Shown one piece after another: positions 4,993-48,730 of a DNA stretch of 64,000 nt. The stretch is from Halomonas denitrificans (lineage in GTDB: Bacteria; Pseudomonadota; Gammaproteobacteria; Xanthomonadales; Wenzhouxiangellaceae): assembly GCA_019800895.1 (NCBI GenBank), contig JAHVKF010000003.1, forward strand, positions 186,001-250,000, read 5' to 3'. Within the stretch, counting starts at the first letter, position 1, and each line of letters begins with the position of its first letter. Under the pieces are notes generated by a model. The model did not search any database, was not told the origin of the DNA, and worked only from the letters and a program-made list of their open reading frames with translations. Both the position numbers and the translations under genes were made by a program.

Positions 4993-6810
4993 CTACAGCG
5001 TATTGAATCGTCGCAGAGCGCCCACCGCGAGCAGTCCAAGCAAGGCGGCCAGCATCAGCAATCCGAGGCTGTTCAGCGAGGGAACGCCCCTTGCGCCCCC
5101 GCGGCCGTAGAGAATCACTACCCTGCCGGCATTGGATCGTCCGCCCGGATCGGACAAAGGCCCGCCGATCGCAACGTCGTCGATGCCGTCGTCGTTGAAG
5201 TCTCCGTGCGCCAGCCCAACGCCAAGGCCCTCCTCGTCCGGAAAATCCCGGACGAACAACCCGCCTTGACCATCACCGCCGTTATGCGCCAGCAAGCTGT
5301 CGACGACGAACTCCTGCGGCGGCGACGGCTGGCCGAACACGATCCAGGCGCCCGTGTTTTCCAAGTCAATTCCGAATTCGCCGGTCATGGCCACATCATC
5401 GAAGTCATCGTGGTTCACGTCGCCGATCCCCTGGATGGCAGTGCCGAAGTGAAGCAGCGAGCTTGGGGCCTCTTGGTCAGAGCGAAAGCGAGTCAGCCGA
5501 ATCTGGCCGGCCACAGCATCGAAACCGTCGCGAAAATCGATTTCGGCCGGAAAGGGTTGACCGCCGAAGATCAGGTAGGCCTCGCTCTGAACATTGACGC
5601 CCGGCGCGTTGATAACCAGATCCGGGAAACCGTCACCGTCGAAATCGCCGGCATTGCCAACATCAAATCCACCACGCTCTTTACTCAAACTGTTCGAGCC
5701 AAGCGCGGCCCGATTCGCGCCGGTCAGCACCATGCCGGAAGCCCCATCGCCGCCGTTCTGAGTTAGAAGCATGCCAAGGTCCACAACGCTGGGAAACGGT
5801 TGCGATCCGGTCCGTCCGAATAACAAGAAGCAGCTGCCGTTGAAATCCGTTCCCGGGTACTGCGAGATTGATCGACACAAGACAATCTCGCCAATGCCGT
5901 CTTGATTCAGATCGTCGACAAATCGGGCGTCGTAAAAACCATCGTCACTCGCCGGGATGTGTTCGAGAACTGGCGGCACGATTGCGAACCCGCGTTCCGG
6001 AGGTAGAGTGCTCAGGGCCGCTTGGTCGATCTGTGCCGGCCAGGTTCGGTCGCCATAGCCGTAAATCACCCACGCCATCCCCATTCCCCGATTTGTTTCG
6101 AATTCGCGGTTGCTCAGCACGATCAAATCGTCCAACCCGTCGCCATTGATGTCCTCGCCGCCGAAAAAGTCGCGGCCGAGGAACTCGGCGTCGCTACCGC
6201 TCAGGACGAAGCCGCGCGTGCCGTCGCCGCCGTTCTCGGGCAGCAGGGCTTCATAGTCGGCAAAGTCCTGCGCCACGGTCGGGCCCCCATAGACGACGAA
6301 CACCTGTCCGTCCTGGAATCCACCGCCGACAACCGGCGTGCGCTTGTTGAAGCCCAGGTCGTCGATGCCGTCGTTGTCGAGATCACCGAGGTTGCGAACG
6401 CGATAGCCGGTCTGCTCCGGATGCAGCGCAAGTGCGATCTGCTCCGGGCCGATGGTTCCCTGGAATGCGTTCAGCAGCTCGACACCGTCCGGGCCCATGG
6501 ACAAATCCGAACCGCCAAAAATCAGCGCCGCCCCGCCGGGCGGTTGGCCCGGGTTCGGGGAATTCGGCGCGAAACCAGCGAGCAGGTCGTCGACGCCGTC
6601 GGCGTTGAAATCGCCAGCGGCCAGGCCCCAACCAAACTCCTGCACGCCGAAGGCACCGTTGATGACGAGCCCGGTGCTCCCGCCGGGGTTCTGCGCTGGC
6701 AGAAAATCGGTTCCGCCTAGGGATGGCGGAAACGTATGAACTTGCGTTCGGTTTACTGCGGCGCTACTCTCAAAAATGGGGCTTGCAGCGATAACCATGG
6801 CAATGGTCAT
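4993..6810 (-). CDS. Exported FG-GAP repeat protein with IPTL-CTERM-like sorting tail
   Basis: A protein of about 605 residues built of repeated calcium-binding FG-GAP (integrin-alpha type) blades: DFNADGVDDL, DLDNDGIDDL, DINGDGLDDL, DLNQDGIGEI, DFDGDGFPDL, DVNHDDFDDV and DFNDDGIDDV, about seven units that should form a beta-propeller. The C-terminus reads VPSLNSLGLLML, a hydrophobic helix and then ALRR, which resembles the IPTL-CTERM signal handled by an exosortase. The start is uncertain: 6810 gives a short hydrophobic leader without charge, whereas an in-frame ATG at 6900 gives a long Arg-rich leader but overlaps the divergent S8 gene. Base composition is lower in G+C than in flanking genes. 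Probably a surface or outer-membrane protein; ligand unknown. Confidence 0.8.
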   Translation of the reverse strand: MTIAMVIAASPIFESSAAVNRTQVHTFPPSLGGTDFLPAQNPGGSTGLVINGAFGVQEFGWGLAAGDFNADGVDDLLAGFAPNSPNPGQPPGGAALIFGGSDLSMGPDGVELLNAFQGTIGPEQIALALHPEQTGYRVRNLGDLDNDGIDDLGFNKRTPVVGGGFQDGQVFVVYGGPTVAQDFADYEALLPENGGDGTRGFVLSGSDAEFLGRDFFGGEDINGDGLDDLIVLSNREFETNRGMGMAWVIYGYGDRTWPAQIDQAALSTLPPERGFAIVPPVLEHIPASDDGFYDARFVDDLNQDGIGEIVLCRSISQYPGTDFNGSCFLLFGRTGSQPFPSVVDLGMLLTQNGGDGASGMVLTGANRAALGSNSLSKERGGFDVGNAGDFDGDGFPDLVINAPGVNVQSEAYLIFGGQPFPAEIDFRDGFDAVAGQIRLTRFRSDQEAPSSLLHFGTAIQGIGDVNHDDFDDVAMTGEFGIDLENTGAWIVFGQPSPPQEFVVDSLLAHNGGDGQGGLFVRDFPDEEGLGVGLAHGDFNDDGIDDVAIGGPLSDPGGRSNAGRVVILYGRGGARGVPSLNSLGLLMLAALLGLLAVGALRRFNTL

Positions 6811-6885
6811 CGATATCGTTTTCTTGTTGAATACACATCTTGCGACAGTTCCGCAGGCCCGCTGCCGCCTTCGGAGGATTTTCGC

Positions 6886-8850
6886 ATGAATCTCAGGCAT
6901 CCAACGCTTCGCAACGCTTCGCAACGCTTCGCAACGCTTAGACATTACTGCCTCCTCTCGACCCTGCTAATCACGATTGGGCTCGCGCACGCTTCTTCGC
7001 CGCGCCAGCCAATCCCTCAGGTCCCGATCCCCTCGCAACTCGTCAACGATATCACGCCGCTTTCGGCGGTCAATGGTGAATACGAGCTCCTGGTCAAATT
7101 CGACGATTCGGTCGAGGCTCGGGTGCAGCAAGGGGCGTTGGTTTCCTTGACTTCGAAAGCCCCAATGGCAGAACTGCAAAGTATCGCGGCCAATTACGGG
7201 GCTAGTTTTGAACAGCTCCTCAATGGCGGTGCTTGCCCGAATATCAACGCGCTGTTGGGTCAGGCAGAGACTCGTTCCGGTCGGGCTCAGCCGGACCTTG
7301 AAGGCTTGCACCAGGTCGAGTTTCCGCCAACCCTCAGTGGGCAGCAGCTGCTGGACTTATATGATGATCTTGTCTTCCATAGCGATGTCGAATTTGTTGA
7401 ACTTCGTGAGGCCTCGCCTGGGCCGCCACCCAGTGGCGGCACAACTCCAGATTTCTCCAGCGGACCGCCGCCGAGTCAAACCTTGTATCGCGGTCCGAAC
7501 CCGGGCGGCGACTTCGACTTTGCTAACAATCTCGGCTTAATCGGAACTGGGGTTCGGCTTTCAGAGGTGTCAATTGCCTATAACTTTCAGCATGAGGATA
7601 TTGGGGGAAATTTGATCAGCCATCCAGCGACCGGTCTTGATCGGTACGTGGGGAACTCATTGTGGGATGGCTGGGTCGATCACGGAACTGCGACGCTAAG
7701 CCAAAACCTGGCCCCGGGCAACGGGTTCGGTGTTACTGGGATGACGCGAGGTGCCGATGGGCAATTCTATCGCGCGGGTGTCTGGACGGGCACGGATATT
7801 GACTTCCAGATTGAGGAGGCGTTCTGCAATGCCCTTGGTGATTCGATAGTTGCCGGAGATGGGCAAGTGGTTTATCTCGAGTTTCAGGTAGGCACGCCGG
7901 GGTCATGGTTGGCGCCACTGGAAGTGCTTTCGAGCATCTACATGATCACTGTGGTTGGCACAGATGCTGGCGTTGTTGTTCTCGCTCCCGCGGGCAACGG
8001 GGCAACCAATCTGGATACAAGCAACGAGTCCCTGATCCAAAGCTGGAGAGCACGGCCGGATTCCGGGGCAATTATCGTCGGAGCAGGGAGTGCCGATACC
8101 AATCACGATCGACTCTCTTTCTCCACTTTCGGTAGTCGAGTCAACCTGCAGGGGTGGGGAGAGAGTGTAGTCGCCGCCGGCTACGGGGAGCTCGCGCAGG
8201 TTGGCGGAGACATCAACCGAGCGTATACCGGGATTTTCAACGGGACCAGTTCGGCGACGCCCATGGTGGCCGGTGCCGCAGTTCTGGCTCAGGAATCCGC
8301 GCTTTCTTTGGGCATTCCGGCGCTAGATTCACGGCAGATGAGGTCGTTCTTGGCAGCCACCGGGATTCCGCAGGGCACCTCAATTACAGGAAACGTCGGG
8401 CCATTTGTGGATGTGCGCCGAGCGGTGACGGAAGTCGCGGATGCCGATGTATCGATCGCCAATGCTCAGTCCGGAGTGACTATAACGACGACGGTAATAA
8501 ATCATGGCCCGCGCGAAGCGGAAACCATCGACGTGGACATCGTATTCGGCGGGGTCACAGCCTATACGCTTTCGCCGGTTACCGTCCCGGCAGGGTGTCA
8601 GTGGAATCCGAACCCGCCGATTCCTCCGGGTCATTCCTGTCTCGGCCAATGCCCCAGCTTGCTTGAGTGCACCTTCGATAATGCCGCCCGTGGCCAGCAG
8701 TTCATCATTCAGCATGAGGTTCAATGCGGCCCGAACGAGTCGTTCCAGCTCGATTCCGACGCAGCGTTGCTGGGTCTGCTGAACGATCCTGTGAGTGCGA
8801 ATGATGGTGACCAAATCACAGTGCTTTGTTCCGGTCAATCGTCGAGCTGA
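6886..8850 (+). CDS. Exported subtilase-like S8 family peptidase
   Basis: A 654-residue protein with ribosome site GGAGGA seven bases before the ATG at 6886. The N-terminal leader (about residues 20-37, HYCLLSTLLITIGLAHA) is a signal peptide, followed by a propeptide-like region and the S8 domain from about residue 205. His is in VDHGTATL, the oxyanion Asn in APAGNG, and the nucleophile Ser in NGTSSATPMVAG. The position where the catalytic Asp normally sits reads LSEVSIAYNFQHEDI, with Glu instead of Asp. A C-terminal region with several Cys residues resembles a CARDB-type beta domain. Codon use is less G+C-rich than neighbours. It diverges from the FG-GAP gene. A 10 bp tandem repeat lies in codons 6-18. 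Confidence 0.85.
   Translation: MNLRHPTLRNASQRFATLRHYCLLSTLLITIGLAHASSPRQPIPQVPIPSQLVNDITPLSAVNGEYELLVKFDDSVEARVQQGALVSLTSKAPMAELQSIAANYGASFEQLLNGGACPNINALLGQAETRSGRAQPDLEGLHQVEFPPTLSGQQLLDLYDDLVFHSDVEFVELREASPGPPPSGGTTPDFSSGPPPSQTLYRGPNPGGDFDFANNLGLIGTGVRLSEVSIAYNFQHEDIGGNLISHPATGLDRYVGNSLWDGWVDHGTATLSQNLAPGNGFGVTGMTRGADGQFYRAGVWTGTDIDFQIEEAFCNALGDSIVAGDGQVVYLEFQVGTPGSWLAPLEVLSSIYMITVVGTDAGVVVLAPAGNGATNLDTSNESLIQSWRARPDSGAIIVGAGSADTNHDRLSFSTFGSRVNLQGWGESVVAAGYGELAQVGGDINRAYTGIFNGTSSATPMVAGAAVLAQESALSLGIPALDSRQMRSFLAATGIPQGTSITGNVGPFVDVRRAVTEVADADVSIANAQSGVTITTTVINHGPREAETIDVDIVFGGVTAYTLSPVTVPAGCQWNPNPPIPPGHSCLGQCPSLLECTFDNAARGQQFIIQHEVQCGPNESFQLDSDAALLGLLNDPVSANDGDQITVLCSGQSSS
6903..6939. 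repeat. 10 bp tandem repeat (3.7 copies) in the S8 leader
   Basis: AACGCTTCGC is repeated three times perfectly, followed by AACGCTT. It lies between the ATG at 6886 and the hydrophobic core of the signal peptide, so gain or loss of one unit would shift the reading frame of the S8 gene. Confidence 0.9.
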
Positions 8851-23859: not shown

Positions 23860-23960
23860 AGCTCTGCGTTCTTTGCTGGCCTCGTGCCCGGTCCTCCAGA
23901 TGATGGGCGCGAAGACGCGAAGACGCGAAGGGCCATGACTGAACGCGGATCGAACCGACT

Positions 23961-25572: not shown

Positions 25573-25966
25573 GGCTCGGGCTTCGTTCGGCTTCGGTGCC
25601 TCGACCCTTTAGAGGATGGACGCAAAGGCGCGAAGGGGCGAAGGACGCAACGAGGATTCTGAATCTTTAAAACTGCGGAAAAGCGTTTTCTCGCGGAGAC
25701 GCAGAGACGCAGAGAACTTCAAAAAAATTGGAAGATATTCCAAACCCGTCGCCCCGGATCAAGTCCGGGGCAATGGGTTTGAGGCTCTCAACCATGCTTG
25801 CCGTTCTCTGCGCCTCCGCGTCTCTGCGCGAGAACGCCTTTTCCACGTTCTTTGCTTTACCGCTTTTCAACCATTTCTTGTTTTTTCTTCGCGCCCTTTG
25901 CTCCTTCGCGCCTTCGCGTCCATCCTCTAAAGGAACTTGCCGCAATAACCGCTATGAGCAAGGGCG
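25573..25966. other. Gene-free region, mostly one long palindrome
   Basis: The region between the rpiA stop and a small lipoprotein gene on the other strand consists almost entirely of the inverted-repeat element at 25608-25931. Its left flank (GGGCTTCGTTCGGCTTCGGT) resembles the sequence following ettA at 38222, suggesting a remnant there. No gene seen. Confidence 0.7.
25608..25931. repeat. Long nested palindromic element A1
   Basis: The left end TTTAGAGGATGGACGCAAAG-GCGCGAAGG is inverted at the right end (CTTCGCGCCTTCGCGTCCAT-CCTCTAAAG). A second, inner pair follows: CGTTTTCTCGCGGAGACGCA-GAGACGCAGAG on the left and CTCTGCGCCTCCGCGTCTCT-GCGCGAGAACG on the right. At the centre is a third palindrome, CCCCGGATCAAGTCCGGGG. 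No coding frame. Confidence 0.85.
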
Positions 25967-27789: not shown

Positions 27790-28605
27790 CTAGCGGCAGA
27801 ACGGAGGCGGGTTGGGCCGCTGGCACGCAGGGTGATTGCTACCGCCACCCGAGCCACCCGAGCCACCCGAGCCACCCGAGCCACCCGAGCCACCCGAGCC
27901 ACCCGAGCCACCCGAGCCACCCGAGCCACCCGAGCCACCCGAGCCACCCGAGCCACCCGAGCCACCCGAGCCACCCGAGCCACCCGAGCCACCCGAGCCA
28001 CCCGAGCCGCCCGAGCCGCCCGAGCCGCCCGAGCCGCCCGAGCCGCCCGAGCCGCCCGCGCCGCCCGCGCCGCCCGAGCCACCCGGGCCACCCGAGCCAC
28101 CCGAGCCACCCGAGCCACCCGAGCCACCCGAGCCACCCGAACCGCCCGAACCGCCCGGTGCGGCGGTTCCCTGTTCACGGCATCCGCCCGGCACGTGCGC
28201 CGGGTCACCCGAGACCAGCTGGCAGTTCCAGTCGATCCCGGAAAAGGCATTCTCGAAGTTCAGTCGGAACTGGACGACGGGGTCGATGGTCGCCCCGGTG
28301 TTCTGCGTTTCGATCACGACCGAGCCGTCGCCGGCAACGCGGACATCCGCGCAGTTCTCGGTGGCGGTAAAGGAAAAACCCGCCTCGTCGGACCCGGTCG
28401 GTGCGCGGCCCCGGCGCGTTGCCACATCGGCCACCGCGGCCTGCGCGGGGCCGGCCAGGCCCAGGCATTCCGAGACCTTGGCGCGGATCGAGTAGTTGGT
28501 GTAGCTCGGCACCGCGATGCCGAGCAGGATCGCGATCACGCCGACCACGACCATGAGTTCGATCAGGGTGAACCCCCGAACGGACGAAGACGATGGATGC
28601 TGCAT
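27790..28605 (-). CDS. Type IV pilin-like protein with long Gly-Gly-Ser C-terminal tail
   Basis: A 271-residue prepilin. A short basic leader is cut at G/FTLIELMVVVGVIA by prepilin peptidase, with the essential Glu5 present. The globular part (about residues 35-145) has Cys residues in SECLG, ENCAD, WNCQL and GGCRE that can form disulfides as in PilA/PilE proteins. From about residue 150 a tail of some 105 residues consists of (Gly-Gly-Ser) units with a few Pro or Ala replacements, ending in NHPACQRPNPPPFCR with two more Cys. A pilin normally ends near residue 150. AAGGGG lies eight bases before the ATG. No other pilus genes are nearby. Confidence 0.85.
   Translation of the reverse strand: MQHPSSSSVRGFTLIELMVVVGVIAILLGIAVPSYTNYSIRAKVSECLGLAGPAQAAVADVATRRGRAPTGSDEAGFSFTATENCADVRVAGDGSVVIETQNTGATIDPVVQFRLNFENAFSGIDWNCQLVSGDPAHVPGGCREQGTAAPGGSGGSGGSGGSGGSGGSGGSGGPGGSGGAGGAGGSGGSGGSGGSGGSGGSGGSGGSGGSGGSGGSGGSGGSGGSGGSGGSGGSGGSGGSGGSGGSGGSGGSGGGSNHPACQRPNPPPFCR
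27844..28158. repeat. 9 bp tandem repeat, 35 units, coding for (Gly-Gly-Ser)n
   Basis: Unit GCCACCCGA on the + strand (TCGGGTGGC, Ser-Gly-Gly, on the coding strand). The first 18 units (27844-28005) are identical; units after that vary at third positions and a few at the Ser codon (GCCGCCCGC giving Ala, GCCACCCGG giving Pro). All 35 are in frame with the pilin gene. Confidence 0.95.
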
Positions 28606-29959: not shown

Positions 29960-30467
29960 CTCTCGCGACGTACCGGACGTCGTGCCATGTTCCTAGAGGA
30001 TGGACGCGAAGGCGCGAAGGAGCGAAGAAACGCGAAGGAAAAGCCTTAAAGTGGATTAGAAAAGCGATCTCGCGCAGTGAAACAAAGGCGCAGAGAGAAA
30101 GAACGGAAAACAGGGTTCGGGTTTCAGGTTTCAGGAAAAGCCAGAACCTACAACCAACAACCAACAACAAGCGTTCTGTTTTCTCGCAGAGGCGCGGAGA
30201 CGCAGGGAAAGACAGTGCGGGTATCGAGGCGCTGGAGTTTCGTCACGAGGTCCCGGGTTCCGGCTTCGCCGGCCCCGGGATGACGGAGTCATTGATGAAT
30301 CGGGAGCCTGTCCGAGTCTGTACCGATTTCCGCGTCCCTGCGAGAAATCGCTTCTGACCCTCTTCGGTTCCTGCTTTTCTCTGGCCCCTGATTTTTTCGC
30401 TTCTCGTTTCTTTGCGTTCCTTCGCTCCTTCGCGCCGTTGCGTCCATCCTCCAAACGACACCAGCCG
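29960..30467. other. Gene-free region, mostly one long palindrome
   Basis: About 500 bases between the DUF456 gene and the hydrolase gene that converges on it. It is filled by inverted-repeat element A2 (29993-30455). No gene is seen. Confidence 0.7.
29993..30455. repeat. Long nested palindromic element A2
   Basis: Outer arms CTAGAGGATGGACGCGAAGG-CGCGAAGG and CCTTCGCTCCTTCGCGCCGT-TGCGTCCATCCTCC are inverted copies of each other and match A1. Inner arms include TCGCGCAGTGAAACAAAGGC-GCAGAG and TTTCTCGCAGAGGCGCGGAG-ACGCAG. A further G+C palindrome (CCCGGGTTCCGGCTTCGCCG-GCCCCGGGATGACGGAG) lies inside. Longer than A1 by about 140 bases. Confidence 0.8.
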
Positions 30468-35223: not shown

Positions 35224-35396
35224 TGGATTACCGCAGATGAACGCGGATGAACGCAGATGAAAAACGATTCTTTGATGGGGTCGATCCACTAGCCCCTGGC
35301 CCCATCTCCCTCGTCTCTCGAACGCCGGGCCGCATTCTCGCTCTTCCGTTTCTCGCACTGATCTGCGTCCATCCGCGATCATCCGCGGTAAATCAT
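35224..35396. repeat. Palindromic element B (ACGCAGATGAACGC type)
   Basis: The left arm GGATTACCGCAGATGAACGC-GGATGAACGCAGATGA is inverted on the right (CTGATCTGCGTCCATCCGCG-ATCATCCGCGGTAAATC). In the centre GATGGGG faces CCCCATC. This family, recognisable by repeated ACGCAGATGA/ATCCGCG, recurs in many proteobacterial genomes. It separates convergent genes. Confidence 0.8.
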
Positions 35397-48449: not shown

Positions 48450-48669
48450 TGTGGGAGTGAGCTTGCGAGCGAATGGTGAAGTTTTTCGGTTCGCTCGCAA
48501 GCTCACTCCCACAGGCCTGCATTCTTCCGGAAAGGTTCGGTTCGCTCGCAAGCTCGCCCCGACAGGCCTGCATTCTTCCGGAAGTGTTCGGTTCGCTCGC
48601 AAGCTCACTCCCACAGGCCTGCATTCTTCCGGAAAGGTTCGGTTCGCTCGCAAGCTCACTCCTACCGGC
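48450..48669. repeat. REP-like cluster with 51 bp tandem copies
   Basis: One copy in forward orientation (CTGTGGGAGTGAGCTTGCGA-GCGAA, 48450) is followed by four direct copies of a 51 bp unit starting at 48488, 48539, 48590 and 48641. Each unit has GGTTCGCTCGCAAGCTCACT-CCCACAGG plus GCCTGCATTCTTCCGGAAAG; the last is truncated. It lies 19 bases beyond murA and may also terminate its transcript through the inverted first pair. Confidence 0.9.
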
Positions 48670-48730
48670 CTTCAATCTTGAGGAGGGGTGGGCGGGTCCG
48701 GGTCCAGGAGTGATTCGAACCGTCGATCGA

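Follow-up and report, generated by a model that had tools for sequence, protein, structure and literature searches.

A 10-bp tandem repeat as a candidate frame-setting tract in two head-to-head genes of Halomonas denitrificans

The stretch of DNA considered here (the window: 64,000 nucleotides of Halomonas denitrificans, contig JAHVKF010000003.1, positions 186,001 to 250,000, renumbered from 1) carries a short perfect tandem repeat just behind the start codon of a subtilase gene. A sequence-only reading of the locus proposed that the repeat is an on/off switch of the kind found in phase-variable surface genes. Does the repeat set the reading frame, of which genes, and could it instead be a by-product of a lineage that breeds such arrays? 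The features first needed are the following.

6886 to 8850, plus strand: S8 (subtilase) gene, 654 amino acids, N-terminal signal peptide (PF00082, 46.1 bits, cut-off 21.8).
6873 to 6877, plus strand: ribosome-binding site GGAGG, 8 nt before ATG 6886 (duplex energy -9.5).
6902 to 6939, no strand: tandem array (Tandem Repeats Finder, TRF: period 10, 3.8 copies, 100% match, no indels).
6949 to 6987, plus strand: hydrophobic stretch (residues 22-34) forming the core of the S8 signal peptide, past the array (from the translation, core judged by eye).

The array is made up of three full CTTCGCAACG units with partial ends and occupies codons 6-18 of the S8 ORF, numbered from ATG 6886, so that its place ahead of the core and its period agree with the sequence-only reading. 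At the array, the run of positions matching the base 10 positions earlier is 28 long, and the longest such run in 100 simulated 64-kb windows (first-order Markov; periods 4, 5, 7, 8, 10 and 11) was 15, which rules out a chance repeat. Dispersed arrays of the same unit are also ruled out, since the double unit, searched with up to two mismatches, is confined in the organism's own 3.21-Mb genome to the array at 6902-6939 (three overlapping registers); a control with the reversed pattern, which itself fits this array, gave two matches. The 10-bp unit is free of stops in every frame on both strands. Because its length is not a multiple of three, gain or loss was expected in the earlier reading to shift the frame, and scripted variants with 0-8 units bear this out: at 1, 2, 4, 5, 7 or 8 units a stop follows within 62 codons. 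The same reading held that the core is intact solely at the present count, but the core is in frame whenever the number of full units is divisible by three, with the gene open at 0, 3 and 6. The assembled window has three full units, which places in frame both ATG 6886 and the SD-linked ATG of the opposite-strand gene described below. A tract of 3.8 copies is short for a fast switch.

The S8 N-terminus runs from MNLRHPTLRNASQRFATLRHY through the core CLLSTLLITIGLA to AHA (signal peptide read by eye). The sequence-only reading would be in difficulty if translation could begin beyond the repeat, but no ATG, GTG or TTG lies in the S8 frame between array and core in the window, and the lone CTG there (6964) has no ribosome-binding site. 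S8 secretion should therefore need translation through the array. A further ATG in the S8 frame at 6736 (energy -7.6) also precedes the array and leaves the conclusion unaltered: as far as can be predicted from the DNA, the array sets the S8 frame. The nature of the product is a separate matter. The catalytic His (DHGTAT) and Ser (GTSSATPM) are kept, with triad positions assigned by eye, but at the position of the catalytic Asp (residues ~225-245) there is Glu in the window (LSEVS) and at one homologous locus, G004:C37 (LSELS), compared with Asp in 12 of the 17 other relatives having that S8 column. It is possible that the protease is changed or inactive.

On the other strand lies a gene that the sequence-only reading overlooked, along with its likely start beyond the array.

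4993 to 6945, minus strand: FG-GAP (beta-propeller) protein gene, 650 amino acids if the start is ATG 6945 (PF01839, 83.4 bits).
6951 to 6956, minus strand: ribosome-binding site AGGAGG before ATG 6945 (duplex energy -12.0).
6886 to 6945, no strand: proposed head-to-head coding overlap, 60 bp, codon on codon, enclosing the array.
7046 to 7073, minus strand: sigma-70-like promoter match TTGACC-16-TATCGT, ~100 nt upstream of ATG 6945 (consensus match only).

Between 6945 and 6700 the FG-GAP frame contains five ATG, GTG or TTG codons, and a ribosome-binding site is found only at ATG 6945; the other four (TTG 6924, ATG 6900, 6810 and 6798) have energies from -0.7 to +0.3. The frame is closed by a stop 7 codons upstream of ATG 6945. 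Energies of -10 or below occur at 0.7% of 3698 internal in-frame ATGs (1.264-Mb sample) and at 1.3% of 75 unambiguous starts, so that a site as strong as that of ATG 6945 is rare even among real starts. FG-GAP thus probably starts at ATG 6945, which makes the 60-bp overlap likely. Other indications are less favorable to this start. Our own gene caller (dicodon scores plus an SD-motif bonus, trained on long ORFs of the same genome, with rough starts) sets it at 6645, contrary to 6945. Similarity to other FG-GAP proteins begins only within the signal peptide (query residue 8, ~6807), leaving the leader unsupported by homology, and an n-region as long as that read from 6945 is unusual. FG-GAP homologues at G004:C48 and in G006 likewise carry long open leaders. 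With regard to the fate of the product, the organism's own genome encodes an XrtH exosortase (TIGR04177; G000:C4:71167-71631, L162; 199.1 bits, cut-off 86), and a search with the exosortase model PF09721 gave no match. Sorting of the FG-GAP protein by XrtH remains a guess, because its C-terminus is only weakly like the XrtH-cleaved class (19.8 bits, cut-off 45).

The simplest alternative to a shared tract is that the array governs S8 only and that FG-GAP starts after it. Possible starts past the array can be named, namely TTG codons in the relatives G004 and G003 and ATG 6900, which lacks an SD sequence, in the window; moreover, FG-GAP at G004:C37 is open even with its SD-linked ATG out of frame. 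In the window, ATG 6945 has a very strong ribosome-binding site and the four later starts have none, so we regard this single-gene switch as unlikely. The two-gene reading, as judged from the sequence, is well grounded in the window and less so in the relatives. In this two-gene reading, a slippage-prone tract would lie in the 5' coding region shared by head-to-head subtilase and FG-GAP genes, both with exported products. A change of one or two units would frameshift translation from both SD-linked starts simultaneously, because the unit is stop-free in all frames and the ORFs lie codon on codon, and a change of three units would lengthen or shorten the N-terminal regions by ten residues. On this reading the genome as assembled would be in the ON state for both genes. 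Gain or loss of one repeat should disrupt one gene and probably both.

Another explanation is that the array influences how the divergent pair is transcribed, as helically phased binding sites or as a spacer. The unit is about one helical turn (10 bp), the array is located between divergent genes, and a promoter-like match is close by: one sigma-70-like match is found in 6550-7300, compared with a mean of 0.1 in 50 shuffles, and at 7073-7046 it is oriented to transcribe from the FG-GAP start at 6945. No plus-strand sigma-70-like promoter for S8 was found in the same interval. However, the array is downstream of the S8 start codon, and the unit sequence differs between the window and G004, which is not what is expected of a binding site, making an effect on transcription very improbable.

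Relatives, compared as one genome per species, offer a view of what the array does over longer times. The S8 search, own genome included, gave matches in 9 of 61 genomes at 0.001 and in 16 of 299 genomes of the order at 1e-10; in both searches a whole-length match was limited to the own genome, and a separate contig search found five distant relatives. FG-GAP matches were obtained in 23 of 43 family genomes, and five FG-GAP loci besides that of the window were read (G004:C48, G004:C37, G006:C177, G013:C170 and G003:C223). Three of these retain traces of S8. At G004:C37 it is divergent (47% identity over query residues 7-288) and truncated thereafter; at G003:C223 the S8 start and last part (residues 557-647) remain and the rest is deleted; and G013:C170 shows by eye a remnant interrupted by stops and lacking the array. 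The S8 search had no match in G006, where no S8 gene was seen beside FG-GAP either. The closest FG-GAP homologue, at G004:C48 (68%), adjoins, by eye, a TPP-enzyme-like gene resembling the window's neighbor, with S8 absent between them, and its leader looks unrelated and is without the array.

Two of the five loci, in genomes (G004 and G003) of the same genus as the window, carry a repeat at the same place. Five full CTTCGAGAAC units lie between the S8 start and core at G004:C37 and one at G003:C223, giving 3, 5 and 1 full units in the window, G004 and G003, three species-level genomes. In all three, the array sits between an SD-linked ATG and the core, and the GGAGG motif and its spacing at the two relatives' S8 starts are the same as in the window (duplex energies -10.2 at G004:C37 and -10.3 at G003:C223). 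Copies are identical within each multi-copy array (window and G004) and the unit differs between them, which indicates that the array has turned over since the loci parted. Dispersal of the G004 unit was rejected, the exact double unit being found only at G004:C37 among the 43 family genomes. The frame rule is also shared. In scripted variants with 0-8 units, counts of 0, 3 and 6 carry both SD-linked ATG frames into the region of the signal peptide at all three loci, and at the other six counts both stop within 62 codons; the exception is G003, where S8 is mostly deleted and its frame closes after 33-53 codons at counts of 0, 3 and 6 as well. At their actual counts, both SD-linked ATGs are off frame in G004 (5 units) and G003 (1 unit) and on in the window (3). 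Off-frame states at G004:C37 and G003 may reflect decay, since S8 is truncated in the former and mostly deleted in the latter. The G004 remnant is nevertheless stop-free for 301 codons after the array despite its off-frame ATG, suggesting that its off state is probably recent.

For FG-GAP, the same loci are less informative. Energies of its SD-linked ATGs are moderate in the relatives (-6.5 in G004 and -7.8 in G003), a range to be read against the 13% of internal ATGs that reach -6, and a TTG beyond the array has a better SD-like sequence in each (-11.4 in G004 and -8.9 in G003), so FG-GAP need not be off in either genome. The FG-GAP-strand sequence by the S8 start is similar in G003 and G004 (LHDxVLLLRRRACTxAA), with 2, 2 and 4 differences at codon positions 1, 2 and 3 over 15 codons and 5, 2 and 7 over 22 codons. 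Comparison of the window with each relative (10, 13, 11 and 8, 12, 10) helps little, the differences being about equal across positions. Altogether, the comparison of relatives indicates that the array changes and decides the S8 frame, and a maintained switch goes beyond it.

Neutral slippage followed by gene decay competes strongly with a selected switch as an explanation, because these genomes have many arrays of this kind outside genes. According to this explanation, the lineage breeds short arrays, one of which happened to fall in a tolerant n-region, where slippage sometimes breaks the frame and the genes are then lost. Arrays were counted as TRF rows having a period of 4-25 that is not a multiple of three, 2.8 or more copies, a match of 90% or better and no indels; L107 and L142 each contribute two rows that overlap one another. 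The own genome (1.264 Mb, 1028 called genes) has 21 such rows, 4 in called genes and 17 outside; G004 (394 kb) has 24, 3 in called genes and 21 outside. The array at 6902-6939 is the only one of the 21 within 100 nt of a called start, and G004 has none so near, that at G004:C37 being counted as intergenic through the caller's start placement. The lineage thus breeds such arrays, yet the place of this one is unusual. Around S8 genes in particular (period 4-14, at least 2.7 copies, 90% match; the 1500-base domain flanks may miss far starts), no array with a unit other than a multiple of three was found near the own genome's other S8 genes (L020-L029, 10 of 11 S8 hits; L030 is the window's gene), and among the homologues L003-L010, L031-L035 and L066-L077 such arrays occur anywhere in the stretch only in L003 (8 bp, 2.9 copies) and L031 (7 bp, 3.0 copies).

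Other repeats were seen along the way. The window contains a 9-bp array, GCCACCCGA, at 27844-28157 (34.9 copies, 97%) in a weakly scoring called ORF on the minus strand (27790-28605), its unit a multiple of three and hence in frame; short 8- and 10-bp arrays outside called genes at 23908-23930 (CGCGAAGA), 25692-25715 (CGCAGAGA), 30005-30027 (CGCGAAGG) and 35232-35261 (CGCAGATGAA); and longer tandem repeats at 48485-48679 (51 bp, 3.8 copies) and 2234-2532 (104 bp, 2.8 copies). Heptamer arrays are abundant outside called genes in the 394-kb G004 sample (L161:61-401, L149 and others), with CTGAACC x48.7, AACCCTT x9.9 and CGAGAAC x4.9 as examples. A 7-bp array (TCCGCCT x11.6) lies ~850 bases upstream of the G006:C177 FG-GAP homologue (L038:2701-2781), and a perfect one (CCCTGGT x5.7; L101:4608-4647) at the 3' end of a called gene would vary the C-terminus.

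Neutral slippage also accords with S8 being truncated, mostly deleted, stop-broken or unseen at the other five FG-GAP loci read, with one of three loci in frame, which is the expectation for random copy numbers, and with heptamer arrays in Xanthomonas, described in the available text as common and mostly intergenic (PMC4692102). Against it stand the 301 open codons of the G004 remnant, with its probably recent off state, and the retention of an array between SD-linked ATG and core in three of three loci despite the differing unit. We consider neutral slippage a real but doubtful possibility, and tentatively hold that a slippage-prone tract inside the head-to-head overlap of two genes with exported products best explains the array. 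That this tract amounts to a bidirectional translational phase switch, in which one slippage event would silence or restore an exported protease together with an FG-GAP surface protein, is a narrower proposal and itself an unlikely one. The array, the start sites, the register, the frame rule and the differences in copy number and unit at two homologous loci are read from the sequence; that FG-GAP truly starts at 6945, that cells of one population come to differ in copy number and that the bacterium uses the switching is what we infer. The likeness to phase-variable design seen in the earlier reading therefore stands for the frame logic, the SD-linked start before the array and the other copy numbers at two homologous loci, and switching itself lies outside what the comparison established.

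Among known systems, repeat-driven translational phase variation would seem the closest in mechanism, the repeat lying in the 5' coding region after the start codon, its unit length not being a multiple of three and a change by one or two units leading to an early stop; the arrangement also recalls the hif divergent promoter. NalP of Neisseria meningitidis is subtilisin-like. It is described as a protease cleaving surface proteins, phase-variable by a homopolymeric tract in the coding sequence (PMC3723659, in part); it differs from the present case in being one gene with a homopolymer and reported phase variation, which is a possibility for the array here. Among the long repeat units (7-9 bp) of Haemophilus influenzae, one such as AACAACC in an HI1369 homologue is similarly not a multiple of three, lies in an ORF with consequences for the frame and varies in copy number among strains, although 8 and 13 copies are given there, in one gene, compared with 3.8 here (PMC2651432, in the portion available). 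In the hifA/hifB pair of the same species, one (TA)n tract between divergent surface-structure genes affects both, as the array may do here, and is proposed to act via promoter spacing (PMC2651432, same portion); that unit is 2 bp as opposed to 10 bp, and the array at 6902-6939 would sit in both coding regions and act on frames. It lies within the S8 coding region and not between the -10 and -35 of a shared promoter, and an effect on both divergent genes holds if FG-GAP starts at 6945. Heptamer arrays of Xanthomonas, another gammaproteobacterial genus, are short and vary in length, 89-93% of them intergenic according to the text at hand, compared with coding starts here (PMC4692102). Decanucleotide repeats are defined in PMC5231331 (seen as an extract). 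Divergent overlaps are described in the accessible part of PMC2174442 as strongly under-represented in most surveyed prokaryotes, with codon-aligned ones (123:321, in our reading of its notation) making up 25-30% of them. Our own crude caller has 38 of 211 divergent pairs overlapping, a figure that we distrust. No paper on a repeat placed within such an overlap of divergent coding regions was found in the literature, as searched by title and start of abstract in open-licence papers and among the matches listed.

To our knowledge, known repeat switches set one reading frame, or promoters, and what is new here is the two-gene reading of the array. If it is true, a tract setting two opposite-strand frames would couple two gene products via a single mutation, and divergent coding overlaps, under-represented in prokaryotes, would gain a possible use. 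If only slippage and decay are at work, the locus would be a clear case of an array hastening gene loss.
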